IMG/VR virus record: IMGVR_UViG_3300005841_000001
Location: 37,658-101,657 of that record
DNA from: a virus
Reading direction: 5' to 3' (one strand)
Length of the DNA: 64,000 bases
The notes under the pieces were generated by a model. That model was given only the letters and a program-made list of their open reading frames with translations, had not been told where the DNA came from and made no database searches. Below, in pieces: positions 4,836 through 43,000 of this stretch (within the stretch, counting starts at the first letter, position 1; each line of letters starts with the position of its first letter). A program made the translations under genes and the position numbers.

Positions 4836-6311
4836 ATGACGGACTCGCTCACCCGAGACATCGAACGCTGGTGGGGCGCCGAATCCGGCACCGACCTCAC
4901 CCGCGTCGACTTCGACGCCATCGGCTACGAAGTCGCCGGCATCCGGGTCTCGAATGCCGTCGCCGACCTCGACCCCCAGCTCTACGAAGCTCTCGCACTG
5001 CTCGAGCCGCCGGCCCCCCACCCCTGGCGGCGGACCGCGCTCCCGCACCAGGTCGAGGCCGCCGAGGCGACCGAGCCCTACGTCCTGATGTGCGCCGGCC
5101 GCGGCGCCGGCAAGACCTACACCGCGTCGCACACCCTCACCGAATGGATCGAGGAAGAGCCCGGCGACTACGCGATCATCGCGCCCACGTTCGGTGACGC
5201 CGTCAAGATCTGTGCCGAGGGCCCATCCGGGTTTCTCAAGGCCGCCGGCGACCGCGTCGAATCGTTCAACAAGAACGAGTTCATCGTCTACATGACGAAC
5301 GGTTCACGTGTCGTGCTCGCCTCCGCCGACGCCCCTGACCGCGTCCGCGGCTGGAACCTCACCGGCTTCTGGGCCGACGAACTCGCGTCCTGGAAAAAGG
5401 CTGAGATCTGGGACGAGGGCCTCGAGTTTGCGACCCGCATCGGGCGCACCCGCCGCATCATCACCACGACCCCGAAGCGCGGCTCGAAAGTCCTCAAAGA
5501 CCTGCTCAAGCGCGTCGATGCTGAAGACCCTGACGTCAAGCTGGTCCGCGCGTCCACCTCCGCCAACGCCGCCAACCTGTCCGAGACGTTCCTGCGCACG
5601 ATCCAGCAGCGCTACGCCGGCACCACCCTCGGCCGGCAGGAGCTCGACGGCATCCTGCTCGGCGACGTCGAGGGCGCCCTGGTCACCGGCGCCCAGATCG
5701 AGCGGGCTCGCGTCCGGCCCGCCGAGGTTCCGGAGCTGTGGCGGCTGGTCGTCGGCGTAGACCCCGCGGTCACGAACACCTCCGAGAGCGACGAGACCGG
5801 CATCATCGTCGCCGGCATCGGGCCGGCACCCGAGGGCTGGGAACCGCCCGTCGGCCAGCTCGTGCTCGCCGGCGCGCCGCACATCTACCTGCTCGAGGAC
5901 GTGTCCGGCCGGCGGTCGGTCAACGCGTGGGCTAAGCAAGCGCTCATCACCGCTGACGAGTGGGCCGCGGACGCGATCGTCGCGGAAAAGAACCAGGGCT
6001 ACGACCTGGTCGAATCGAACATCCGGCTCAACGCGCTGGTCGACCGGCTCGCCGTGCCGCACGTGCAGCTCGTGCACGCGGCCAAGGGCAAGTTCACCCG
6101 GGCCGAGCCGGTCGGCGCGCTGTTCGAGCAGGGCCGGTTGCACGTCGTCAACACGATGCCCAAGCTCGAGGACCAGTGGACGGAGTGGATCCCGGGCGAC
6201 GGCACCGTGTCCCCCGACCGGCTCGACGCCTCGGTGTGGGCGGTCGTCGGTTTGATGCCGGAGCTCGGGATTGGTGGCTCGGGTGCGGTCAAGATCCTGT
6301 CGGCCGGCTGA
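4836..6311 (+). CDS. terL: Terminase large subunit
   Basis: Encodes 491 residues, normal for the family. This is the DNA-packaging motor that translocates DNA into the prohead and cuts it. The N-terminal ATPase has Walker A AGRGAGKT (residues 87-94), a Walker B-like GFWADE (177-182) and a coupling motif TTTPK (210-214). The C-terminal RNase H-like nuclease begins around residue 305 with GVDPAV, whose Asp309 is the likely metal ligand. The ATG at 4836 follows a GGGGAGG Shine-Dalgarno. Unusually it stands alone among leftward early operons, 26 kb before the portal gene. Confidence 0.95.
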   Translation: MTDSLTRDIERWWGAESGTDLTRVDFDAIGYEVAGIRVSNAVADLDPQLYEALALLEPPAPHPWRRTALPHQVEAAEATEPYVLMCAGRGAGKTYTASHTLTEWIEEEPGDYAIIAPTFGDAVKICAEGPSGFLKAAGDRVESFNKNEFIVYMTNGSRVVLASADAPDRVRGWNLTGFWADELASWKKAEIWDEGLEFATRIGRTRRIITTTPKRGSKVLKDLLKRVDAEDPDVKLVRASTSANAANLSETFLRTIQQRYAGTTLGRQELDGILLGDVEGALVTGAQIERARVRPAEVPELWRLVVGVDPAVTNTSESDETGIIVAGIGPAPEGWEPPVGQLVLAGAPHIYLLEDVSGRRSVNAWAKQALITADEWAADAIVAEKNQGYDLVESNIRLNALVDRLAVPHVQLVHAAKGKFTRAEPVGALFEQGRLHVVNTMPKLEDQWTEWIPGDGTVSPDRLDASVWAVVGLMPELGIGGSGAVKILSAG

Positions 6312-25307: not shown

Positions 25308-25817
25308 ATGCCTCACGTGATCGAACCCCTCGCGCTGCCCGCCATGCGGCAGCACACCGGGCTGTACCTCGGCCCGCGCCACGCCAAGCCGGTCACCGAC
25401 GACGTGATTTTGCAGGTCGCGCAGCGCACCACCGGCGGCGGCGCGTCCATCCTGCTCGACGTCGCCGACGTCTCCCGCGCCGTCTGCTGGCTCGTCGCCG
25501 CCACCGGACAGGACCCGAAGGTCGAGGGCTACGGCAGCCGTCGCCAGGCGCCGGGGCCGGTGCTGAACCCGTTCGTCGCCGTCGCCCGCTACGGCGACTA
25601 CGCGGACGTGCTGACCCTGTACGTCGCCGACGGCGAGGTGGTTGCCAGCGTGCAGCACTTCGCGACCGACTTCGGCAACGCGGGCCCGCAGGGCACCACC
25701 CGGCTCACCATCGTGCAGTCCGGGCAGCTGCGCGACTGGCTCGCCGCGTGGCACCTGCACGGCTGGCCGGGTGTCCCCCGCGCCGGCGCCGGCGAGCCGG
25801 CGGCGGTGACCCGGTGA
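25308..25817 (+). CDS. Unknown soluble protein
   Basis: Encodes 169 residues (MPHVIEPLALPAMRQHTGLY...) with AGGAG upstream. Looks alpha/beta. No catalytic motif recognised. Ends in a GTGA overlap with the next gene. Confidence 0.75.
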   Translation: MPHVIEPLALPAMRQHTGLYLGPRHAKPVTDDVILQVAQRTTGGGASILLDVADVSRAVCWLVAATGQDPKVEGYGSRRQAPGPVLNPFVAVARYGDYADVLTLYVADGEVVASVQHFATDFGNAGPQGTTRLTIVQSGQLRDWLAAWHLHGWPGVPRAGAGEPAAVTR

Positions 25818-26221
25818 GCGCCGGCGGTAAGGCCGAGGCGATGTCACGCTTGGTGACGGCCTACGACCGTGTCGGCGGGTACACGGTGTGGGTGGCGAGT
25901 GAGCTCACGCCGCCGGCGCGCCCGGTGTTCGGACCGTGGCCGGCGTGGGTCGGCGCGGCCGCCGAGCTCGCCGAGACGGCGATGCGTCTCGCCGCGACGC
26001 GCATCGAGATGAGCGAGACGGACCCGGTTCCTACCGAGACGCTCGCGCCCGTCGTGGTGCTTCTCGACGAGACGGCGCCGTGGGGTCGCGTCTCGCTGGT
26101 GCGAGACGCGATGGCCCGCGTCGACGTGAACCTGATCATGGTGAACCGAGACGGTACGGTCAGCACGGGCCCGAGTCGCTTCGCGCCGGCCCGAGACGAA
26201 AACGAGACGGAGGAGCCGTGA
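25814..26221 (+). CDS. Unknown protein whose gene is packed with CGAGACG
   Basis: Encodes 135 residues from a GTG overlapping the previous stop. No domain recognised. Its DNA carries ten CGAGACG/CGTCTCG heptamers in 238 bp, read in different codon phases (Glu-Thr, Arg-Asp, Arg-Leu, Val-Ser), which suggests selection on the DNA and not only on the protein. Ends in GTGA with the next gene. Confidence 0.7.
   Translation: MSAGGKAEAMSRLVTAYDRVGGYTVWVASELTPPARPVFGPWPAWVGAAAELAETAMRLAATRIEMSETDPVPTETLAPVVVLLDETAPWGRVSLVRDAMARVDVNLIMVNRDGTVSTGPSRFAPARDENETEEP
25972..26209. repeat. CGAGACG heptamer cluster, rightward
   Basis: CGAGACG on the plus strand at 25972, 26014, 26035, 26068, 26102, 26147, 26192 and 26203, and inverted copies at 25985 and 26089. 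From base composition well under one copy would be expected. Confidence 0.85.
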
Positions 26222-26481
26222 CGCTGCCCGCCCGGAGGGACATCCGCCGTGACCTCGCGGCCGCCGTAACGATCTTGATCGGCCTCACCTTCGCTGTCTG
26301 GTCATGCGCCTGGGGCGGCCCGCCGATGATCTTCATGTGGGGCGCGTGGATCATGTTCGCGTGCGCCGCCAAGCTCGGCTTGCACGAACCGACGCCGCCC
26401 GCGCGCGACCCCGGGCTGGCCGACCCCGAGGACCCGAACGCGATGCATGTCGAGTCCGTGCGCGGGCCTGACACGACGTAG
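26218..26481 (+). CDS. Two-span membrane protein
   Basis: Encodes 87 residues from a GTG overlapping the previous stop. Basic N-terminus (TLPARRDIRRDL), then hydrophobic segments at about 12-30 and 35-52, then an acidic tail. In position next to a TraB-like gene it resembles the small spread (Spd) membrane proteins of actinomycete plasmids, but this is inference. Confidence 0.7.
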   Translation: MTLPARRDIRRDLAAAVTILIGLTFAVWSCAWGGPPMIFMWGAWIMFACAAKLGLHEPTPPARDPGLADPEDPNAMHVESVRGPDTT

Positions 26482-26484
26482 CGC

Positions 26485-26517
26485 GCACGCGCCTACTCGC
26501 GCGTAGGTACGCGCACG
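26485..26517. repeat. Palindromic DNA, GCGCACG flanked
   Basis: CGCGCCTAC / GTAGG-CGCG inverted repeat with a 6-nt centre, bounded by direct GCGCACG copies, in the gap between convergent genes and between the two heptamer clusters. Confidence 0.5.
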
Positions 26518-26551
26518 AACGCCCCCGCACTCGTGAGTGCGGGGGCGTTTT
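26518..26551. terminator. Strong intrinsic terminator
   Basis: Perfect 16-bp stem AACGCCCCCGCACTCG / its complement, followed by TTTT, ending the rightward early transcript. Confidence 0.9.
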
Positions 26552-26595
26552 CCGTGCGGAAAGGGTTGGGAAAGGATCTACAGGTGGGGGCCCAT

Positions 26596-26656
26596 TTTCC
26601 GCCGTTCCGCGGGCCTATGGAAGGCGACGGAACAGGCCCGCGGAACGGCGCGGAAA
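26596..26656 (-). terminator. Long inverted repeat after the TraB-like gene
   Basis: Arms TTTCCGCCGTTCCGCGGGCC and GGCCCGCGGAACGGCG-CGGAAA pair over about 20 bp with a small bulge, 17 bp beyond the stop of the leftward translocase gene. Probably its terminator; a transfer-related role is possible. Confidence 0.6.
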
Positions 26657-26672
26657 GCTCGTGGAACGGCGG

Positions 26673-28694
26673 TCAGTTCGAGCTGGCCAGCACCTCGGTG
26701 AGCGCCCACGTCCCCTTGCTCGTGCGCCTCACCCGGCCGGCCTCCTCGTGCTCGGACAGCCGCTCGTATACCCACGACTTCTTGCGCGTGGCGGCCTCGC
26801 CCAGCTGTTCGTAGTCGAGCCCGGGCGCGCCCGCTTCGCGCAGCGCGGACAGCAGTGCGGCGCGCGCGTCTTCGTCGCTCAACCGCTCCGGCTCGGCCTT
26901 CAACGCGGCCGCGGTGGCGGCTCGACGCGCGTCGTCCTCGGCGAGCTCTTCGGGCGACATGTGCGCCCGGGCGGCCGCCTGGATGTCCTCGATCGTCGCG
27001 CTACCGTCCTCGACGAACGGCGGGATCGTCTCGGGTCCCGTCTCGCTCGTCTCGCCGTCGGTGACCTGCGCGTCTCCCTCGGCGTCTCGCCCATCTCGTT
27101 CGTCGTCTCGCATCTCGGTGACCTCCTGTCGGTTGGCGTATGCCTCGAGCTTCTCGATCCCGTCTCGGATCGAGTCGGCGTCCATCTCGGGTGTCTCGCC
27201 GCGCATCACGTCGGCGATTTGCTTCACGGTGTTGCGCGTGCCGTTCGAGCCATCGCCCACGAACACGATCCGCATCGGGATCCGGTCGAGCTTGTCGCCG
27301 TCCTGGTGGTAGCACGTACCCGGCCGCTCCGAGTCGATTTCCTCGGCGTGAACGTCACCCACGGTGATGACGAAGCTCTCGCCAGAGCTGCTCTGCATGC
27401 GGAAGCAGAACGCCTGGTCCAGCTGCTCACGGATCTGGCTCGACCCGATCGCGTCGAGGGTGGCGTACTGCGTGGCGATGATCAGCGACACTCCGACGGC
27501 GCGACCCTTGCGGGCGATCTCTTCGACCCGGAAAAGGGCCTTCGAGTCCATCTTCCCGAGCAGCGACGCAGCTTCGTCGATCGAGATCGCGAGCCACGGG
27601 TGCTCAGGTGAGCCCTCCCAGGACTTCCACCCGTACTTCTTCAGCAGCTGTCCGCGGCGCTCCACGATCTGTTCCGCGGCCTCGATCATCCGCATGGCGG
27701 ACGCGTAGTCGTTGACGATCCAGTCGAATACGCCCTCCCACGGGCCGAGCTCGGCGCCACCCTTGAGGTCGATGCCCCACTGCACGACGTCGTCGCACAG
27801 CGACAGCGTGGTCCAGATCAGGTTCAGCAGGCCGGACTTTCCCGACCCCTTGGTGCCGGCGATCAGCAGGTTGCGCGCGCCCCACCCTGCCTTGAAGATC
27901 CGCAGGAACTTCTCGGTGCCGTCGGCCCGGATTCCGACCTTGATCGGGTCGCCGCCGTGCAACGTGCGCAGTCGCGGGCCGTCCTCGGTCGGCTCGATCG
28001 GCGGCGCCCACATGATCCCCTTGGCGTGGGGGTCGTTGAGGGTGACTTGCAAGATCACCGAGTGGTTCGAGCGGCCGTCGCGTTCGATCTTGAGCGAGTT
28101 GTGCGGCAGGTCCAGTGCACCCTCGATCTCGTGCTCGATCTTCTCGACCTTCTTGATCGAGTGCATGCCCGGCTGCCACGACAGCTTGCCGACCCAGCCC
28201 ACCGCGGTGTGCGTGATTCCGACCAGGCGGGTGTCGCCGAGGCCGATCCGCGCGCCACGTACCGGCCAGTGTCGAATCAGGCCCTCGAGGTTCACGCGGG
28301 TGCGCTTGACCTGGTCCATCCAGTGTGGAATTGCCAGCACGATCGTGCCGGAAGCGAGTAGGCCCAGCGCCCACAGCCAGCCCTTGCCGGTGGAGAGTGT
28401 TGCGGCCCAGATGATCCAGCCGTTGATCGAGGTCATGATGGCGAGCCAGTGCAGCCGGCGCCATCCCTCGGGCACCCGGGTGACCACCCAGGCGGTCACT
28501 CCGAGGGTCCACGAGACCATGCAGATGGCCAGCAGCAACGTCTCGATGGTGATGTTGGCGAGGATGCCCATGATCAGCACGGGCACCGCGAGGTACACCG
28601 GCGCGAGGCCGATGCGGTGCATCCGCAGCCACTCGACGAGGCCGTACGATTCGACCTCCTCGACGGCCGGGGCAGAGGTCTTGCGCTTGCCCAT
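26673..28694 (-). CDS. TraB/FtsK-like DNA translocase
   Basis: Encodes 673 residues. The second ATG is chosen because AAAGGAG lies 6 nt before it. Membrane spans occupy about residues 31-70 and 85-125. The FtsK/SpoIIIE motor has Walker A AGTKGSGKS (279-287) and Walker B LAISIDE (368-374). An acidic linker (about 485-575) leads to a winged-helix C-terminus (ARAALLSALREAGAPGLDYE...). This is the layout of TraB proteins, which pump double-stranded plasmid DNA between actinomycete mycelia and bind 8-bp repeats through the C-terminal domain. The linker DNA carries the second CGAGACG cluster. A role in moving phage DNA is the alternative. Confidence 0.88.
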   Translation of the reverse strand: MGKRKTSAPAVEEVESYGLVEWLRMHRIGLAPVYLAVPVLIMGILANITIETLLLAICMVSWTLGVTAWVVTRVPEGWRRLHWLAIMTSINGWIIWAATLSTGKGWLWALGLLASGTIVLAIPHWMDQVKRTRVNLEGLIRHWPVRGARIGLGDTRLVGITHTAVGWVGKLSWQPGMHSIKKVEKIEHEIEGALDLPHNSLKIERDGRSNHSVILQVTLNDPHAKGIMWAPPIEPTEDGPRLRTLHGGDPIKVGIRADGTEKFLRIFKAGWGARNLLIAGTKGSGKSGLLNLIWTTLSLCDDVVQWGIDLKGGAELGPWEGVFDWIVNDYASAMRMIEAAEQIVERRGQLLKKYGWKSWEGSPEHPWLAISIDEAASLLGKMDSKALFRVEEIARKGRAVGVSLIIATQYATLDAIGSSQIREQLDQAFCFRMQSSSGESFVITVGDVHAEEIDSERPGTCYHQDGDKLDRIPMRIVFVGDGSNGTRNTVKQIADVMRGETPEMDADSIRDGIEKLEAYANRQEVTEMRDDERDGRDAEGDAQVTDGETSETGPETIPPFVEDGSATIEDIQAAARAHMSPEELAEDDARRAATAAALKAEPERLSDEDARAALLSALREAGAPGLDYEQLGEAATRKKSWVYERLSEHEEAGRVRRTSKGTWALTEVLASSN
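27027..27166. repeat. CGAGACG heptamer cluster, leftward
   Basis: Read as CGTCTC(G) on the plus strand at 27027, 27039, 27048, 27071 (last base C), 27083, 27104 and 27161, with CATCTCG and TGTCTCG variants between, inside the linker-coding part of the translocase gene. Orientation is opposite to the 25972-26209 cluster. Confidence 0.85.
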
Positions 28695-28761: not shown

Positions 28762-29991
28762 TCAGCTGCGTGCCGGCGCGATCGCCGGCGCGGTGAGCAT
28801 GCCGCGCAGGTACGGCCAGTAGTACGTTTCGAAGTCCGCGATCACGGTGGTCAGACCGCGCGCGGTCTGCGCCATGCCTTCGCGAGCCATCCGCATCCCG
28901 GGTCGCGTGATCGACATGTCGATGTTGCAACCGCGCTGCGGACCACCCGGTCGATTCAGGGTGCGCTCTGCCGTGTCGAGCGCCTCGGCGCCGACGACGA
29001 ACGCGCGCTCGAGTCCGACGATCCAGGCGCGGAGTTCGTCGAGGGTCCACGGCTTGTCCGCTCGAGGCTTGAGCTCACCCCACGCGAGCAGCGCCTGTTG
29101 CACATTGCGTGCCTCACCGCAGTCGGTCATCGCCTTTTCTCCAATCCTGACGAGCTGGTCACTGTGGGCCTTGATGTAGTCCTCGGCCTTGAACCGGCGC
29201 CGGCGGTGGCCGGGGCGGTGTCGCCCGGCCGGCGTGCGCCGGCGGCCGCGGCGTCCGTGCGCCGGCGGCAGGACGCGTACGGTGCCTGCCGTCGCCTTCG
29301 TCGTGCCGGGGGCGAGCAGGGCCTGCTCGCCCGAGCCGGTCGCCAGTGACGCCTCGCCTTCGTGCTCGGCGAGCCAATGCGCGTTCAGCGCCTCGGCGTT
29401 GGCGTAGGTCTTGTCGCAGCACTGGAACTTCGAGCCCCACCCTGCTGGGCGTCGCTTGCGCGGCGAGGTCGCTGCCTGGGCCGCACGCCGGGCGCGGGCC
29501 CGCTTCGCAGCTTTGGCCGCTTTCGTGGCAATGCGCACTGAGCCGGCGGTCGTCGCCCCTGCGCCGACCGCCACCCACGCCACAGCGCGGGTGATCTTCA
29601 TCTTCTTGGGGATCCGGTGCACGAACTTCTTGCGCGCCTTCCACCGGTCCTTGGTGGTCTTCTGCTTCTTGGTCTTGGGCGTCTTGCCCGGCTTCAACGA
29701 CGCCGGCAGCTTCGCCGGCTTGGCGCCCACGGTGCCGGTTGCCGTCGCGGCCGCGACCTCCGCCGCCCGGCGTTGGGCCCGGGTCTGCTTGACCTCTCCG
29801 GTCTGGGCGAGCATGCGCAGGGCCTCGCGCGCCTGCTCTTCGCGACCAACCTCATGGCGCAAGCTTCGCTTGGCGCCGGTACCCAGATCAGCGTCGGCGG
29901 GCCTGTTGGTGTCAGCGTTTCGTCGACGTTGCCGCGCGGTTCGCTCGTCCCTGCGCAGGGTCCCGTCCCCGAGTCGCTCAGGCTGGCTCAC
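28762..29991 (-). CDS. C2H2 zinc-finger, membrane-linked plasmid-transfer type protein
   Basis: Encodes 409 residues from a GTG overlapping the DUF2637 stop. The N-terminal 140 residues are very basic; one weak span lies near 140-165 (AVAWVAVGAGATTAGSVRIA). A C2H2 finger follows (CCDKTYANAEALNAHWLAEH, about residues 190-212), then an Arg/Gly-rich stretch and a helical C-terminal domain. Its place between translocase and DUF2637 genes matches transfer loci of actinomycete plasmids. Confidence 0.75.
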   Translation of the reverse strand: MSQPERLGDGTLRRDERTARQRRRNADTNRPADADLGTGAKRSLRHEVGREEQAREALRMLAQTGEVKQTRAQRRAAEVAAATATGTVGAKPAKLPASLKPGKTPKTKKQKTTKDRWKARKKFVHRIPKKMKITRAVAWVAVGAGATTAGSVRIATKAAKAAKRARARRAAQAATSPRKRRPAGWGSKFQCCDKTYANAEALNAHWLAEHEGEASLATGSGEQALLAPGTTKATAGTVRVLPPAHGRRGRRRTPAGRHRPGHRRRRFKAEDYIKAHSDQLVRIGEKAMTDCGEARNVQQALLAWGELKPRADKPWTLDELRAWIVGLERAFVVGAEALDTAERTLNRPGGPQRGCNIDMSITRPGMRMAREGMAQTARGLTTVIADFETYYWPYLRGMLTAPAIAPARS

Positions 29992-30767
29992 TGTGCGATC
30001 GCCTCCTTGGTCTCCTGCTGCTGCGCGAGCCACGTCGCGCGCACCTTCCGGCCGAGCGTCGGCCGGGTGCCGAGGTACTGCGCACCGAACCGGTCCAGTT
30101 CGGCGCCGGTGGTGTCTCCGTGCTCGTCGAGGTAGCGCAGCATCGCGTCACGGGGGCGGCTACGCAGGTCGTCGGTGAGCCATGCCGGCGCGCCGGCGAC
30201 AGGCAAGGCCTCGCCTTCGCCGGAGAGGACTCGCAGCGACGTCCCCGTAGCGGGCGCCGCGTCCGGCTCGACCGCTACCGGGGGGGCGGGGACGTCGCTG
30301 CTGGGAACCCCCGACGCTGCTGGTGACGGCACAGCAGCGGCGGGGGCGGCCTTGCGAGCGCGCTTGATGCGCGGCTTCACGTCGAGGCGGACCAGCTTCA
30401 GGATCAGTTCGTACGCGAACGCGAACGCGGCGGCCGGCCACATGTTGATCACCTGTCCGGCGGCGTCCGCCGCGGGTGCGGAGAAGTTCGCTACCAGGGA
30501 AATCGCGAGCGCGACCACGATCGCTACAACGGCGAGCGCGGGGACCTTTTCGCCGTTGCGGCGGGCCTGCACGACCACGATCGAGGCAACCACCATGAGT
30601 GCGTCGACGGACAGCGGAGTGAGCCACGAGAGCCACTCGGTTCCGGTGGCCGCGTGGTGGGCAGCGAGCTCCCGCATGTGCACGTAGCTGGCCGTGGCTG
30701 CCACGCCGGCGACCAGGCCACCGAAGCCAAGACCGGCGTTCCGGACGCTTGCGCTGGTGCTCGACAT
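29988..30767 (-). CDS. DUF2637 (Spd-like) membrane protein
   Basis: Encodes 259 residues. The ATG at 30767 has GGAAG 7 nt upstream. Four hydrophobic segments in the first 135 residues, with the HHAATGTEWLSWLTPLSVDALM region characteristic of DUF2637, then a Pro/Ala linker and a wHTH-like end (LRSRPRDAMLRYLDEHGDTT). Such proteins accompany TraB in plasmid spread between hyphae. Leftward operon head, under the bidirectional promoter at 30825. Confidence 0.85.
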   Translation of the reverse strand: MSSTSASVRNAGLGFGGLVAGVAATASYVHMRELAAHHAATGTEWLSWLTPLSVDALMVVASIVVVQARRNGEKVPALAVVAIVVALAISLVANFSAPAADAAGQVINMWPAAAFAFAYELILKLVRLDVKPRIKRARKAAPAAAVPSPAASGVPSSDVPAPPVAVEPDAAPATGTSLRVLSGEGEALPVAGAPAWLTDDLRSRPRDAMLRYLDEHGDTTGAELDRFGAQYLGTRPTLGRKVRATWLAQQQETKEAIAQ

Positions 30768-30824
30768 GCCCACTCTTCCTGTCGATTTGTCGACTGGTCA
30801 GTAGCTACGGTTTGTACGTACCAC

Positions 30825-30853
30825 TATGCAACTGGTGCACCCAGTTGTAAAGT
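30825..30853. promoter_or_regulatory. Bidirectional promoter with GntR-type operator
   Basis: Rightward: TATGCA, 17 bp, TAAAGT. Leftward: TTTACA, 17 bp, CATAGT. The shared spacer holds the palindrome CAACTGG-TGCAC-CCAGTTG, flanked by ACCACT/AGTGGT. It stands between the DUF2637 and GntR genes, so the GntR protein probably represses both directions (KorSA-like). Confidence 0.75.
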
Positions 30854-30887
30854 GGTAGCCACCAGTGGATCGGAAGGGAATACGAAC

Positions 30888-31631
30888 TTGACCAAGAAAC
30901 AGGACGTAGCGGACGCCCTTCTCGAGGCGATCACCGCTGGTCAGCTGCGTCCTGGCCATAGGTTGCCCTCGGAGCGAGAGCTGGCCGACAAGCACAGCGC
31001 CAGTCGCGAGGCCGTGCGCGGCGCGCTGCACCTGCTCGCCGAGACCGGCCACGTCTACGCCGAACACGGATCCGGCTGGTATGTCCGCGACCTCGAGCCG
31101 CTGCGTTACCCGCTGCACACCATCGACGCCGGCCGAGCCAGCGCCACCGCCGACGTCTGGGACAAGTTCGTGCTCGGACTGGGGCGCACCGCAGGCAGTG
31201 AGCTCATCGTCAACCCGAGCGTCATCCCGCCCGAACGCATCCGCGCGAAGCTGGGACTCGAGTACGGCGAACCCGCGGTCGAGCGGCGCCGCGTCCGGCT
31301 CGTCGACCGCGAGCCGTGGATGATCTCGACCGGGTGGTGGCCGCGGTGGATCGCCAAGGGCACGGACATCGAGAAGCCGCACCAATGCTCCCCGCTGAAG
31401 ATCGCCGGACAGCTGGGCCATGGGCAGTTCAAGAGCGAAAACGAGATCGCTTCACGGATGCCGTTCGGCTCCGAAGTCGAGGTGCTCAAGACCGGGCGCG
31501 GCGTCCCGGTGATGGACATGCTCACCACCGGATGGGACGAGGGCGGCCGCGCAATCCGCTGCACGTCCGATGTCTTCCCTGCCCACCGGTTCCTGCTGGT
31601 TTTCCAACACGACTGGAGCGACGGAAGATGA
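30888..31631 (+). CDS. GntR/HutC-family repressor (KorSA-like)
   Basis: Encodes 247 residues. The first credible start is a TTG with GGAAGGG upstream. The N-terminal winged helix is typical (AITAGQLRPGHRLPSERELA ... ASREAVRGALHLLAETGHVY, residues 10-62) and the C-terminal 170 residues fit a UTRA ligand-binding domain. KorSA-type GntR proteins silence tra genes and plasmid functions in actinomycete elements. Overlaps the GNAT gene by ATGA. Confidence 0.9.
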   Translation: MTKKQDVADALLEAITAGQLRPGHRLPSERELADKHSASREAVRGALHLLAETGHVYAEHGSGWYVRDLEPLRYPLHTIDAGRASATADVWDKFVLGLGRTAGSELIVNPSVIPPERIRAKLGLEYGEPAVERRRVRLVDREPWMISTGWWPRWIAKGTDIEKPHQCSPLKIAGQLGHGQFKSENEIASRMPFGSEVEVLKTGRGVPVMDMLTTGWDEGGRAIRCTSDVFPAHRFLLVFQHDWSDGR

Positions 31632-32185
31632 CCGCCACCATGACCAACCCGGCCGCCGAGAAGAGCCTGCATGTCGAGGCTGTCGACAGCGAGATGATCG
31701 AATACGCGCTGGGCCCGCTCGACGCCGCTGCGCGCTGGCTCGCCGACTGCGGGATCGAACAGTGGCCCATGTCGTTCACCGAGTCGCCCAAGCGCACCGA
31801 CTGGCTCAAGGAACAGGCCGACCTCGGCAACGTCCTCGTGTGGTTCGCGCTCGGCACCAATCCGGTCGCCACCCTCACGCTGACCCCGTGGCAGGACCCC
31901 GACTTCGCCGCTGGCTGGCCGCAACGGGACGCGTTCGCGCAGTATGTTGCCCGGTTCGCCGTCGCGTCGCTCGGCCGGCGGTTGCTGCCCGGTCTCGGCG
32001 CGCGCATGCTCGATCACGCCGCCACGATCGCTGCGCAGCGTGGCGCCCGGGTCTTGCGTCTGGACTGCGCGAAGCGCAACGACCGGCTCCAGCGCTACTA
32101 CCTGGACCACGGGTTCGAGCACGTCGGCACTGTGGAAGTCCCGGGCCGCAAGTCCGGCGCGCTGTTCGAAAGGGTCATCCCATGA
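31628..32185 (+). CDS. GNAT-family N-acetyltransferase
   Basis: Encodes 185 residues. The acetyl-CoA-binding region shows GLGARMLDHAATIAAQRGAR followed by LRLDCAKRNDRLQRYYLDHG, the typical A and B motifs. It uses acetyl-CoA to acetylate an unknown amine, perhaps a protein or antibiotic. GntR-GNAT pairs recur in actinomycete integrative elements. Coupled to both neighbours by ATGA. Confidence 0.88.
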   Translation: MTATMTNPAAEKSLHVEAVDSEMIEYALGPLDAAARWLADCGIEQWPMSFTESPKRTDWLKEQADLGNVLVWFALGTNPVATLTLTPWQDPDFAAGWPQRDAFAQYVARFAVASLGRRLLPGLGARMLDHAATIAAQRGARVLRLDCAKRNDRLQRYYLDHGFEHVGTVEVPGRKSGALFERVIP

Positions 32186-32448: not shown

Positions 32449-34044
32449 GTGGCCAAGCGTGAGTTCCTGCCCGCATTGCGCGGCCTCGCCGCCGCCGTGT
32501 GGGGCAGTGGCGCCGTGGAGTCCAAGGACCTCGCGCAGCGGGTGCGCGCATCCTCGGCCGGCTACCAAACCCCTGGTCAGCCCTACGTCGATAACTGGAA
32601 CGTCCGCCGCGCCACGAAGGAAGCCTACGAGGGAAACCCGCTGGTCTACCGGGCCATCGAGGTCATCTGCCAGCAGGCGATCGCCCAGCGGATCATTATC
32701 CGCCGCGGTGACCCGGAGGAAGGCCCGATCGTCCGCCCCGGCAACGACCCAAGTCGCCTGCTCTACGTGCTCAACCGCCGGGCGAACCCGTGGGAAACCG
32801 CGCTGATCTTCCGGCATCGGCTGGTCGCGCAGTTCCTGCTCTCTTCGCGCGGCGTCTTCATCGAGGTCATCCGCACGCGCTCGGGCAAGATCGGCATCCT
32901 CAACCTCCTCGACCCGGACCTGTGCGCGAACATCCCGGTCGAAAAGCGCGATCCCGTCACCAACGAGGTCCTCGAGTCCGACCCGATTGGCGTGGTGGAA
33001 GTCCAGGTCCCCGGAGGCGGGTACGACTACCTGCCCCGGTTCAACCCGCACGCCACCGCTGAGAACCAGCCGGCTTCCGTCCTGTGGATCCGCTCACCGC
33101 ACCCGCTCGTGCTCTGGCGGGGCATGTCCCCCGTTCAGGCGGCTGGCCTGCCGATCGACCTCGACCGTTACGCCCGGATTTACAACCGCCGGTTCCTCCA
33201 GAACGACGGCCGGCCCGGCGGGCTGATCTCGATCAAAGGCACCGTCGACAAGGGCACGATGGAGCGGATCCAAGCCCAGTTCAACGGCGGCCCCGAGTCG
33301 GCCGGCCGGACCACCGTCGTCGAGGGTGACTCGGTCAGCTACGCCGACACCTCCGGCAGCCCCCGGGACATGCTGTGGGGTGAGCTGTCGAACGCCACCC
33401 GCAAGGACATTGCGATGACCTTCGGTACGCCCGAGTCGGTGCTGGGAGACGCGTCCGGGCGCACGTTCGACAACGCGGATGCCGAGTGGGAGATCTTTTG
33501 GGAGGGGCGAATGAAGCCCCTGCTGGGCACGTTGGACGATCAACTCGACGTGCTTACTGGCGGGTACGACGACGACTTCTACCTGCGTCACGACCTGTCC
33601 AAAGTGTACGTTTTGGGTCGTCACCAGCGCGCCGAAGAAGATCGCGCCGTTGCCGACTACGACAAGGGCATCCGCACCATCGACGAAGTTCGGGACGTCA
33701 AGAGGCTGAGGACGTACGACATCCCCGCTACCCGTGTGCTCTGGCTCGCCGGCGGCAAAATCCCCGTCGGGCAGGACGAGGCCGACACCGAAGCGGCCGC
33801 CGCGCTCCAGACTGCCGGCATCGGACAACCGGCCAACGCCGGCGCCGAAGCGCAGGCCGGCGCCGCGGTTGGGTCGGCGCTCGGCGCTCGGATCTCTGCC
33901 AACGACAACGACGCCCGCGTCCTGCGCGTGCAGTCTTCGCGCGCGGACCTCGAGCCGGCCCTGGGCACCAAGGCGCTGCCCGCGGAGGATCCGGAGGGTG
34001 AGCAGAGCCGCGCGCGAGCCGTACGCACCCCTGAGTGGCGATGA
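32449..34044 (+). CDS. Portal protein
   Basis: Encodes 531 residues from a GTG with GGAGGTGG upstream. HK97/SPP1-type portal features: EGNPLVYRAIEVICQQ near residue 60, the VLWIRSPHPLVLWRGMSPVQ region, LDRYARIYNRRFLQNDGRPG, and FGTPESVLGDASGRTFDNAD, where portal proteins contact the terminase side. It forms the dodecameric DNA gate at one capsid vertex. The C-terminal 80 residues are Ala-rich and overlap the MuF-like gene. Confidence 0.93.
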   Translation: MAKREFLPALRGLAAAVWGSGAVESKDLAQRVRASSAGYQTPGQPYVDNWNVRRATKEAYEGNPLVYRAIEVICQQAIAQRIIIRRGDPEEGPIVRPGNDPSRLLYVLNRRANPWETALIFRHRLVAQFLLSSRGVFIEVIRTRSGKIGILNLLDPDLCANIPVEKRDPVTNEVLESDPIGVVEVQVPGGGYDYLPRFNPHATAENQPASVLWIRSPHPLVLWRGMSPVQAAGLPIDLDRYARIYNRRFLQNDGRPGGLISIKGTVDKGTMERIQAQFNGGPESAGRTTVVEGDSVSYADTSGSPRDMLWGELSNATRKDIAMTFGTPESVLGDASGRTFDNADAEWEIFWEGRMKPLLGTLDDQLDVLTGGYDDDFYLRHDLSKVYVLGRHQRAEEDRAVADYDKGIRTIDEVRDVKRLRTYDIPATRVLWLAGGKIPVGQDEADTEAAAALQTAGIGQPANAGAEAQAGAAVGSALGARISANDNDARVLRVQSSRADLEPALGTKALPAEDPEGEQSRARAVRTPEWR

Positions 34045-37012: not shown

Positions 37013-40000
37013 ATGACCGTGCCCGCAGGGCTGGAGTACAAGACCGCCGGCACGCTCACGCCGGAGATCCCGCCGGCGCTCGCGGGGCCGAAGCACGAGG
37101 GCATCGTCACCGCCATCGTCGCGGTTACCGGCGTCAAGGACGATGTCGACGACGTCATCATTCCCGGCGCGTTCAAGCGGACTCTTGCCGAGCGACGACC
37201 CAAGGTCTGCCTCGGACATGACTGGAATCGTCCCATCGGCAAGACCCTGGACATCAAGGAGCTGATGCCGGGCGACCCTGACCTGCCGAAGACCACGGGG
37301 GAGGGGCAGCCGTGGCCGGTCGAGGCCGGTGCCGTCATCGCGCGTTCGCAGTACAACATGGACACCGAGGACGGCCGGAAAGCCTTCCAGGATGCCATGT
37401 TCTACGGCGAGCAGGAGTGCTATCAGTCCATCGGGTACCGTGTCCCGCCGGAAGGTAAGAAGTTCAAGGGCGGCGTGCGCTATATCCATGACCTCGACCT
37501 CTTCGAGTACGGGCCTGTACTGCACCCGGCGAACCGGCTCGCCACGATCCAGTCCACGAAGGACGACGGCGGAGCTCGCGAGGACAACGCCGTCAAGCCA
37601 GCCGAGATCAAGGCGCGAAAGTACGTCAAGGATTCCGCGTACTGGGGCTTGCCCGTCGGAACTTTGATCACGCCCGGCATGAAGCCGCGCGGTCGGACTG
37701 CGCTCGCCGAACGACGAGCAGGCAAGACTCCCGACCGCAACGCCGGTGTTGCTACCGAGCCGCTCAAGCCTTCGCCCGCGACCGGGAAGCCGCGGTCGGT
37801 GCCGCACAAGCCCGAGAAGGCGAAGGAAGAGCGCGACTCGGCCGGCCTCTTCCCCGAGCCGGACGCGCCCGAGGGTGCACGGGTCAAGCCGTCCGACCCG
37901 CAGGGCCTCGACGCCGAGCACGTGCAGGATCTCGTCGAGAACGAAGCCGGCGAGCAGGACCACGTCGCGCGCGATCACGCGTTCAACGGCCTGATCGATG
38001 AGGGCATCACCCCGGCCGAGCTCGAAGAGGACTTGCGCGCCTCCGAGCACTGGCCTGACGAGATGCCCGAAGAGGACCGGCAGGCCCGGATCGACGACGT
38101 CGTCAACGACTATCGCCGGCAGTACCGCCGTGAAGCTGCGCGCCAGGCCAGCAACCCCGAACCGCGCGAGCAGCACCCCGATGACGACAACCTCGCCGTC
38201 GAGAAGGAAGAGGCCGAAGGAACCGCGAAGCCCGAACTCGAGCCGGATGCCAAGCGCGACATCACTACGCTGACGCCCGAGGAGCTCGACAAATACATGG
38301 AGGTGGCCCGAAAGGGTTCGCTGTCCAACGTCGGGGACAAGCAGCGTCGGTACCAGGACGTGTACGCCAAGGCGCAAGCGGAAAAGCTGCGCCGCGCTGA
38401 CGTCGAGCGCCGGTCCGTGCCTGCGCATCCGCTTGACCCCAAGGCGTACGCCGAAGCCACCCGCGCCGTCGAGGCGCGACGCGGCCGCGTCGCCGACGTG
38501 CAGCGACGCAACCAGGAAATCAGCAAGACCAACGCGCAGATTGACGCGTCCGAAGAGGTTGCGACGAACGCGCCCGAGACGATGAAGAAGCTTCCGGCTG
38601 GTGCCGGGAAGAAGGTGTCGAAGGCAGGCAACGGCCGAGTCGCTTTCCGTGGGAAGGGCACAGCGAACTGGGCCATCGTGTCCGCCGATGGCCGAGCCAT
38701 CGTGTCGCCGCTGAACTTCGAGAGTGAGGGACGCGGGAACGTCAAGCTGTCCGGCCCGCAGCTGGATGAACTTGCCGATCGGATCGTCGGCATCACCAAC
38801 TCGAAGGGCGACCGCGCACCGTTCACTGACCCCGACTCTGAGAAGTGGGTGCCCGGCTTCCGCGACTCCGATGGGCGCAGCCTCGAGCAAGCAGTGTCCA
38901 AAGTGGTCGCCGACTACGCGAACGAGCGCGGCCTGAAGTCGGGCACGCGCACGCGCATCGGTGCGGACTCCGTCCCATGGGGCCACAAACAGGGTGAACA
39001 CGGCGTGGTCAACGCCGAAGGGTTCCACCCGCAGGAGCGGATTCAAGACGTCGGTATCGGCGACCAGGTGAAGCTCCGCAACGGTGATGTCAAGACGATC
39101 GCGAAGAAGGAGGAAGCCACCGGCTCGCAGCGGGACCGCTACGGTGTCGACGTTTTCACGCTCACGTTCGACGACGGTACGACCGAGAAGTTCAGCACCG
39201 GCCAACGGTTCGACACCAAGTACAGCGACGAGAACAACCCCGACGCCGAAGGCCGACTCAACGACCCGGGCATGGGGTACACCAGCGACTCGAACCTGGG
39301 CAGCAAGCGGGACAAGCTGCGTCCGACGTTCAAGGGCGACGGCGACGTGCCCGCGGGGACCCGGTTCATCTACACCCCGGATCGCGCCGACGGCGACAAC
39401 CGCCCCCGTGTCGGCACCGTCACCGACCGCGTGATGAACGCCAACGGGCACGAATTTCAGGTCGTCGAGTACGACGATGGAACTTTCGATGGCGTCAACG
39501 TCTCGAAGCTCGCGGCCGACGGCAAGATCAAACTCAAGCCGACGCCCGAAGACGAGGCCGATGCCCGAGCGCAGTGGGGTGTCGGTGACGGTGCAACAGA
39601 AACCGGTTCCGACTTGGGAGAAGGCGAGTCGGACACCGAGGATGTTGGAGCGTCCGAGGGCGACGGCACGCCACCCGAGGGTGAGCCGGCCGACGACACC
39701 GCGCCCGAGGGCGATCAGCCACCCGCGGCCGATGACGACGAAGCCGCCCGGGTCGCCAAGCTCGGCGCCGAAGACAATCCTGACCGCACCCCGATCGCCG
39801 GCCTGGCGAACCAACTCACCGGCCAGGCGAAGCCGGACGTCTCCGACGTCAGCACCGAGGACCTGAACGCGCTGGACCAGGAGTTCGCCCGGCGCGCCGA
39901 CCTGCTCGGCAAGCCCGGCGCCGTCACCCGTGCACACCAGGCGGTCAAGGACGAACTGACCACTCGGACCGACACCGGTGCCGAACCGGCCCCAGAGCCG

Positions 40001-43000
40001 GACGGTGGGCTCGGCGCCGACGAAGCGGTGATCAGCCGCGCTGAAGTCGATGACGCCCAGCGCATCGCCGACGAAATCCTGGGTGTCACCGAGGGGCCCG
40101 ACGGCGAGCTGGAAGCCGACCCCGACGTAGCCGACCGGCAGGATCGCGTGGAAGCCCTGCTCGATCAGGCCGAATCCGGCGCACTCGACCTCGAGTCCGC
40201 CAGTGACGATGTCGTGACCGGACAGCGGCGGGACCTGGTCGAGGAGCTGCGGTTCCAGAACGCTGTCGCTCGGCGTGACAGCCGACAGCGGCAGATCACC
40301 CGGGCCGATGAAGGCGGCCGACAGCCCCGCGCCGAAGGCGACACTGAGCCGGATGCCGGCACGGAGGCGGAGGGCACCGGACCCGCGCCTGAGTCGAAGG
40401 CGCGTCCGGGCGTCGCCGGCGCGGCCGAGGACCTCGCCGATGCGCTCGATGACAACGACCAGCAGGCCGCCGCCGCCGCGGTCGCTCGGCTCGAGTCCTC
40501 GGTGCGTCGTTCCCGTTCCGATTCCGAGCACCTCGCTCCCCTGCGCGAAGCTCTCGCCGGCGACGGCGGGATCCAGGCCGCGCTCGACGCCGGCACGATC
40601 ACTCCCGCAACGCTGCGCGACTTCGCGAAGAACCTGCGCGACGAACGCCGGCAACAGGCCAACACTCGAGCCCGCGCCCGACGCACGGTCAAGCGGCTCG
40701 AGCGTGAGCGGTTGCGCGGCCTGATCGGCGCCTACGACACCGAGCTGCGCCGGCGCAACCTCGAGCCCGAGAACTTCGGCGGCCTGGTGCCTGCCATCGA
40801 CGAGGGCGCCGGCCGGCCCGAGGTGACCGGGGATGCCGACCTGCCGGAGGGCACTGAAGCCGGCGAGCTGGATGTCAGCAATGCTGAGACCGGCCCGAGC
40901 GGCGAGCGAGCCTCCCGGCTGGTCGCCGAGCCGTGGCGGGTCGTCAACTCGGACGATGCCGCGATGAACGGCGGCGACGCCACCTCGGCGGCCACCCGGA
41001 AGGCCGCCGCCGCCGCGTTCGCCGAGGTGGCCGACAAGTATGCGCCGGTCCTGCGAGAGGCCACGCCCGAGCAGCTCGCCGCCGCCGAGGCGAAGCTGGA
41101 CAAGCGGGGCGCCGACGTCCGCAGTGAAGCGATGGTGATCGCCCTGCTGCTGCCCCGCGGGACGCAGCGAGACGCCTTCATGGCCGACATGCGTACCGCA
41201 ATGGGCAACTACCAGACCAATCTCGCAGCCCTACAGGCTCGCGCCGACCGCGGCGAAGTCAGCCTCGACCCGGCGCCCGAGCTGGGTTCGATCGCGCCCG
41301 GGCGCGTCGGGTGGGGCGGCCGGCTCAATGCGCTGGCACCTCGCCAGCGAGCAGACCGGCCGGCCGGTACGCCGCCGTTCAGCACGGTCTCGCAGGTCAA
41401 GAGCAACCTCAAGTCGCTGACCGCGCCCGCCGGATCGAGCGACTTCGAGCAGAAGACGTTCACCGAGGGCCGTGACCAGTTGATTCGCGAGATCGACGCC
41501 GCCGGCAACGACGTCTTCCTCTCCCCTGGTGGTGGGCTGCTCGCTTTCCGGGCCACCACCCGCGACGGCAAGCGCTGGTTCTTGATCCATACCCAGAGCG
41601 GGCAGTCCATCCCGTCGCTGTTCAACTTCGACGGTCGACAGACCGCCCTCACTCCGGCCACCGGACGCGGTGTGGAAGCTCAACGCTACGACCTCGACGG
41701 GCCGGCCATGCGTCGACTGATGACCGCGTTCGAGACCATGCAGGATCCGCGCGGCCGGCAAGTCGACTTCACCGAGTCGGATCCGGATCGGTTCGCGCAG
41801 AACTTGGTCGGGTGGCGAGACTTCTCCGCTGACGGAACCGTGCGCCCGGCCTTTGTGGATGGACGCCCTCGCTACAACGATTCGATGGAAGGGGCCGCCA
41901 TTCTCGAGGCGGTCCGCGATGACATGCGCCGCTACGGCACCACCTCCGCAGTGCACCGTGCGACACAGATGGTGGCAGGCGGCACCGAGTACACCGGCGT
42001 CAACGGACGCAGCCCGCAGCAGTACCGGCAACTGATGAACGAGCAGTTTCCGTTCGCGTTGCAGGACTTTAACTACGGGCGCAAGCGAGTGCGCGGCATC
42101 GGCCCATCCGAAGACCGCACGCCGGGGGAGCTGAAGAGCGACAAGGACACCGCCGCCGCGATCGATCAGGCACGCGCACTGATCCAGACCGGTAACCCCG
42201 TCGAGGCAGTGTCGGTGTTACGTGCCCGCGCGGCTGAGCTCAAGGACACCGACGGCGAGCGCGGTGGTCGGTTCGGCTCGCAGCGGCTCGAGGGCCTGGC
42301 CAACCAGACCGCCGACCTGTTCTCGCCGGCGCAGTCCGATATGGACCGTCTGATCGGCGCGCAACAGAATGACGTCATCGCGGTGGCCAGCACCGACGAC
42401 GAGCCTCCGATGTTGTTCCGGCTCACCGTCGAACCGCGGCTCGTGCTCACCCGCAATGACGGCACCCGGCTTTACCAGGCCAGCGTCACCAGCGACCGCA
42501 TGGGTGACCAGGACGTCACCATCGACACCGCCGATCAGTACGGCGTGCGCATTGGCGATCGGTCCGCCACCCGCGAGCAGACCAACCTCGGTCAGTCCGG
42601 AATCAACCAGTGGGCGGTGTACCGCGCCGAGGAAGGGCAGGGCGCGCCGGTGGACAACACGCAGATCTTGCGCGATTCGAAGCGCACCCTGCGCGAGTTC
42701 GACCGGTCGGCCGGGTTCGGCGACGGTGAAGACGAGGGCGATCAGGGTGGTGGCGGGGGAGGGCCAGACCAGGGGCCCGACGGCGGCCCCGATGAGACCG
42801 GCGGTGAACGACCGGTGGCCGCCGAGGGAAAAGCGATCACCGTCGACCAGGCCAAGATCGGCGACCTGGTCGCCATCCCGTCCGGACAGGATGAGCCGCC
42901 GTTCGTCGGGCACGTCATGGGCAAGAACGTCCTCGAGGACACCCGGGCGCTGCTCGTGCTGGGCCCGCAGGGCGATGTCCGCACCTACCCGCTGGACGCC

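Follow-up and report, generated by a model that had tools for sequence, protein, structure and literature searches.

The 64,000-nt stretch analysed here (the window) is part of a 101,657-bp record of a large virus of soil actinobacteria. Near 26.5 kb, two dense clusters of the heptamer CGAGACG lie around the 3' end of a gene for a DNA translocase, and the question is which protein reads them. TraB transfer is the simplest known form of conjugation, needing a single pump and a single DNA site, and few such sites are known. A sequence-only reading had proposed the clusters as candidate recognition sites for the translocase itself, and our analysis bears this out: they are probably where the phage's own TraB-type translocase recognises the DNA (clt, or TraB recognition sequences), as suggested by co-placed clusters in two related phages, by the match to the place of clt in plasmids and by the type of the protein.

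A TraB-type protein in a phage genome

The protein has the TraB domain order: an N-terminal membrane region, an FtsK/SpoIIIE motor, an acidic linker and a winged helix (Table 1). Its motor matches Pfam FtsK_SpoIIIE (PF01580, E 1.1e-10) and, by profile, FtsK in the PDB, and over their full length the 675 residues can be aligned with TraB proteins of plasmids (22-28% identity). The C-terminal winged helix claimed from the sequence is recovered in an AlphaFold2 model of residues 590-675, with a pLDDT of about 94 over the domain and the order H-H-H-E-E; the structural neighbours of this model are winged-helix DNA-binding domains. FtsK gamma is absent among the neighbours shown, which is uninformative either way. 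A model of the full-length protein was too poor (mean pLDDT 43) and was set aside. With its motor, its full-length alignment and its GntR and DUF2637/Spd neighbours, the protein qualifies as a TraB-type translocase, and by analogy it would act in DNA transfer.

Table 1. Features of the locus and its surroundings (positions in the window)
Feature	Position	Strand	Remarks
Large terminase	4836..6311	+	marks the record as a phage
ORF, 135 aa, no family	25814..26221	+	codons carry the downstream cluster
Downstream cluster	25972..26209	+	10 CGAGACG (8 +, 2 -), +464 to +701 bp past the traB 3' end; putative clt half
ORF, 87 aa, no family	26218..26481	+	
Non-coding gap between convergent genes	26482..26672	.	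hairpin and second repeat set
traB-type DNA translocase, 675 aa	26673..28700	-	Pfam FtsK_SpoIIIE and full-length alignment
C-terminal winged helix, residues 609-675	26676..26876	-	AlphaFold2 model
Predicted recognition helix alpha-3, residues 641-653 (KSWVYERLSEHEE)	26742..26780	-	sequence comparison and model
In-gene cluster	27027..27167	-	6 exact CGAGACG on the coding strand, in the traB linker between motor and winged helix, -494 to -354 relative to the traB 3' end; putative clt half
Basic protein, 409 aa, C2H2-like stretch	28762..29991	-	homologue at the same place in L110 (27% identity, E 1e-15)
DUF2637 (SpdB-like) membrane protein	29988..30773	-	5.8e-15
GntR/UTRA regulator	30852..31631	+	divergent from the tra genes
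GNAT acetyltransferase	31628..32185	+	
Phage portal protein	32449..34044	+	adjoins the transfer cassette

Since a portal gene adjoins these genes and the record encodes a large terminase, we conclude that a plasmid-type transfer cassette lies within a tailed phage. The same GntR-GNAT pair is found in an Amycolatopsis TraB plasmid. The C2H2-like stretch of the 409-aa protein, CCDKTYANAEALNAHWLAEH, recurs in its homologue in the related phage L110 (see below), and the protein is possibly a DNA-binding partner. As a candidate, the heptamers were also considered as the GntR operator, which was rejected since none is present in the divergent tra promoter region; this region has inverted repeats of its own, ACCACT...AGTGGT and CAACTGGTGCACCCAGTTG, in the GntR/DUF2637 intergenic stretch at 30774-30851, and these are likely the operator. 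Between the head genes and the remaining structural region the phage carries a 2957-aa ORF (37013-45886, + strand) with weak matches to phage families; phage Gilgamesh has a still longer ORF at the same relative place.

No integrase, ParA-type ATPase, resolvase or tyrosine or serine recombinase was found in the record, which may be incomplete. This weighs against reading the clusters as TraB sites, as transfer presupposes a stable plasmid or prophage state. The phage structural genes argue against this being an actinomycete integrative and conjugative element (AICE), a type of element that carries a site-specific integrase. A phage with conjugal transfer does have a precedent in pZL12 (Zhong et al. 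2010; GQ919031), a Streptomyces plasmid-phage with transfer functions going by its title as cited in PMC4487206 and PMC7157519, which like the present record joins a phage genome to plasmid transfer functions. The pZL12 record carries ParA/ParB and an annotated integrase, whereas neither ParA nor an integrase was found here.

Number, position and codon context of CGAGACG

The exact positions confirm what had been claimed for the left cluster, namely ten heptamers in 238 bp, eight rightward (starting at 25972, 26014, 26035, 26068, 26102, 26147, 26192 and 26203) and two inverted (25985 and 26089). For the right, seven near-exact copies had been counted; the cluster stands and all of it points leftward, but only six copies are exact (starting at 27027, 27039, 27048, 27083, 27104 and 27161, the last ending at 27167), the seventh being a 6/7 match. 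The clusters face each other, with 14 of the 16 copies on the coding strand of their own gene. An equal density of the heptamer elsewhere would have spoken against special sites, and this comparison was run. The full record holds 65 copies, 49 of them scattered outside both clusters at about the chance rate, so the surplus of CGAGACG is local; the window as a whole holds 42, compared with 36.6 in dinucleotide shuffles. Among all 7-mers in 250-bp windows across the 101 kb, the left cluster ranks top (Poisson P 2.6e-15; next 7e-9).

Translation of the heptamer falls in either of two frames: one yields Glu-Thr (..C GAG ACG), the other Arg-Asp (CGA GAC G..). The latter depends on CGA, a codon that accounts for just 11% of those for Arg here. 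When codons were resampled with the protein kept and the phage's codon usage applied, the observed count was reached in 0 of 20,000 trials for the left ORF and in 0-2 of 20,000 for the right segment. A harsher shuffle, keeping each segment's own codons, reached it in 0 of 20,000 on the left and in 1,142 of 20,000 on the right; because this shuffle fails to reject the right cluster, that cluster taken alone is the weaker half. The earlier argument from differing codon phases thus holds: protein sequence and codon usage do not produce the clusters, and codon choice is bent so as to keep heptamers in the traB linker and in the downstream gene.

The gap between the convergent genes, to which a palindrome had been ascribed, contains a perfect 15-bp terminator-like hairpin at 26518-26549 and a separate perfect 17-bp inverted repeat at 26600-26616/26634-26650. 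Right after the traB stop (26556-26672), a second repeat set comprises this inverted repeat together with GCGGAA and CGGAAC copies, GCGGAA being present five times.

Clusters in related phages and in TraB plasmids

Single-protein scans for close relatives yielded a near-identical contig (IMGVR_UViG_3300026088_000493; 99.98% identical, clusters unchanged) and, beyond this same phage, no close relative; scans with the terminase and portal added none. In Genome_contigs, a first scan found no relative, an alignment of six proteins was too divergent, and an alignment of two proteins led only to an unrelated FtsK. Two independent relatives, L110 and L025, both of them phage contigs, came out of profile searches of viral contigs. 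L110 encodes portal and head proteins, a GntR protein, a DUF2637-like protein and a TraB with 41% identity to the present one over the best tblastn segment (42% in the alignment); L025 encodes a terminase, major head and tail proteins, a DUF2637 protein and a TraB at 35% (37% in the alignment).

In both relatives the clusters are again paired: the first lies in the traB linker, the second 0.2-0.8 kb downstream. In L110 the motif is CGAGAC(G/A), with nine copies in the linker (-499..-282) and 14 downstream (+428..+782; P 1e-16). The genes downstream of traB have no detectable relation between L110 and the present phage, yet the heptamer is the same, so the conservation that the sequence-only reading had asked for is seen even in a non-homologous gene; the 135-aa ORF likewise has no homology to the downstream genes of L110 or L025. 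In L025 the motif is CGGGACA, present 50 times; 18 copies fall in the linker (-525..-253) and the other 32 lie downstream of the gene (+203..+540; P 3e-80). It dominates the linker codons in either orientation, since the codon null never exceeded nine copies and 18 are present, and the downstream cluster of 32 is non-coding. Counts at the locus are 16 CGAGACG and no CGGGACA in the present phage, 13 and none in L110, while L025 has a single CGAGACG within the same 1.4 kb as its CGGGACA clusters. The recognition-helix regions are ATRKKSWVYERL in the present phage, ATRKSTWLYDRL in L110 and ATRSSSWLYPKL in L025. A similar helix accompanies the same heptamer, and a changed helix a changed heptamer, though three phage loci are too few for a code.

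The 3'-end cluster scan was applied unchanged to plasmids, prophages and other phages. At the 3' end of the transfer gene it recovers the published clt of pWTY27 (TGACACC) and of pJV1 (CCGCACA, nine copies at +6..+123). The pWTY27 clt consists of four to five copies of a 7-bp repeat footprinted by the Tra protein, and the replication iterons of this plasmid lie away from it (PMC3583192). Like the clusters here, it is a set of short 7-bp repeats at the 3' end of an FtsK-type transfer gene; it overlaps the last codons of that gene and is bound by the cognate Tra. It differs in its heptamer, in being a single, mostly non-coding cluster and in belonging to a plasmid rather than a tailed-phage genome. 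As cited in PMC3583192 and PMC4170104, the clt of pJV1 is given as nine CCGCACA[C/G][C/G] repeats and the TRS of pSVH1 as 8-bp repeats read by helix alpha-3 of TraB. The pJV1 repeats too cluster near the 3' end of the transfer gene, just downstream of it, and pSVH1 pairs a winged helix with short repeats, a reading predicted for the present protein as well. In contrast to both, the motif here is another one, and the sites lie partly inside the traB frame and for the rest in a convergent gene.

The scan also found 3'-end clusters of CTGACA(C) type in another seven TraB plasmids or prophages (S. sp. NBC_01506, Amycolatopsis, S. globisporus, pCQ3, S. longwoodensis, L028 and L033), and a GGGTGACA cluster at the traB 3' end of an eighth, L030. 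Some results point the other way. The 3'-end cluster ranks only third to sixth in its record for pWTY27, Amycolatopsis, S. longwoodensis and L028, and the remote TraB-like plasmid proteins L116, L117 and L119 have none. In favour of the TraB reading, the FtsK-like genes of LukeCage, Tomas, Wofford, Gilgamesh, L026 and L027 show no 3'-end cluster. The translocases of the Streptomyces phages (Gilgamesh, Stanwilliamsviridae) share with the present one an FtsK/SpoIIIE motor and a large actinophage genome, but identity is 27-29% over the motor only and the C-termini differ. About 2 kb downstream of the FtsK-like gene, LukeCage (L018, 23419-23554) and Wofford (L020, 12067-12200) have a non-coding cluster of TGTCAC/TGTCAT type. 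Since it is missing from Tomas and the C-terminal domain is a different one, this Stanwilliamsviridae TGTCACG cluster is a lead only.

A blind DNA search for triple heptamers was not diagnostic: no more than 3 of the 200 loci had TraB. Contigs without TraB do carry dense clusters of CGAGACG or CGGGACA, which also counts against the TraB reading. In the three TraB-carrying viral contigs retrieved by the DNA pattern alone (L188, L241 and L299), clusters of CGAGACG or CGGGACA lie upstream of traB instead of at its 3' end. CGGGACA is very dense (11-16 copies in 300 bp) in L325, L265, L244 and L290, where no TraB was detected.

Readings of the clusters

If the clusters are TraB sites, one expects a TraB with a winged helix, co-placed clusters in relatives, a motif that follows the helix and a match to the place of clt. 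All four were found, the relation of motif to helix being consistent across three phage loci. Another protein encoded nearby (the zinc-finger-like 409-aa protein, a replication initiator, a partition protein or a small terminase) could bind the clusters instead, which would make them an origin, a centromere or a pac site. Clustered short repeats also make up iterons, parS arrays and the P1 pac site, and L110 has the 409-aa protein alongside TraB. On the other hand, no ParA-type ATPase was found in the record, plasmid clusters in this position have been published as clt to which Tra binds, pWTY27 having its replication iterons at another place (PMC3583192), and the motif switches between phages whose TraB recognition helices differ. 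We consider such a role unlikely. That the clusters are a by-product of acidic stretches rich in Glu-Thr and Arg-Asp under codon bias finds some room in the own-codon shuffle of the right segment, but the usage-based resampling, the two reading frames, the same heptamer in the non-homologous stretch of L110 and the non-coding cluster of L025 leave it scarcely any probability.

The sequence-only reading had further suggested that the heptamers are read with polarity, as by FtsK, and converge on the 26.5-kb gap; like FtsK/SpoIIIE guide sequences, they would steer a translocase to a recombination or resolution site there. Gap-facing copies do prevail here (14 of 16) and among the CGAGACG of L110 (11 of 13), yet in L025 the orientation is mixed, with eight of 18 copies on the coding strand in traB and 18 of 32 downstream on the opposite strand. 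The strand bias follows the coding strand, and a coding-strand constraint on convergent genes could itself give the convergence. KOPS and SRS keep a consistent orientation along the replicon up to a recombination site, whereas the present motif is not spread along the genome. Because of the mixed orientation in L025 and the absence of a detected tyrosine or serine recombinase, polar reading is unsupported, and we regard it as very improbable.

As TraB recognition sites, the clusters might work as follows. The C-terminal winged helix would read CGAGACG through its third helix, which the conservation of the motif and its switch both support. By analogy with TraB/clt plasmids, the many sites within about 1.2 kb flanking the traB 3' end, one half written in the acidic linker of traB and the other in the downstream convergent gene, would load several TraB units and nucleate a hexameric motor. 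Judging from the content of the cassette, this motor may then pump double-stranded phage or prophage DNA across a septum or a contact with a neighbouring cell, possibly with help from the DUF2637/SpdB-like protein and the 409-aa protein and under restraint by the GntR regulator.

TraB/clt systems and the plasmid-phage pZL12 with its transfer functions are already known. New are phage cassettes with a two-part putative clt, part of it inside traB, and related phages between which the motif has switched naturally; clt sites of tailed phages were not described in the papers reached by a literature search, whose coverage lacked many subscription papers. The results suggest that some phages use a plasmid-style transfer cassette, in which a candidate DNA site is embedded in the gene for the very protein predicted to read it. 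More tentatively, and with slightly more doubt than confidence, a tailed-actinophage lineage may spread both as virions and by TraB/clt transfer of double-stranded DNA, with clt partly inside the traB frame and a heptamer that switched with the helix, which would amount to a natural helix-to-site code. Three related phage proteins with their site sets, two alike and one switched, make the repeat specificity of TraB testable.

Two smaller observations concern the repeats themselves. CGAGACG, CGGGACA, CCGCACA and CCTGACA all end in (G/C)AC(A/G), which we record as a pattern only. Repeats just past the traB stop are seen in the relatives too, as seven copies of CGGACA at +2..+135 in L110 and as a CTGGAC-type set at +5..+105 in L025, and a second site just past traB may be shared among the phages.
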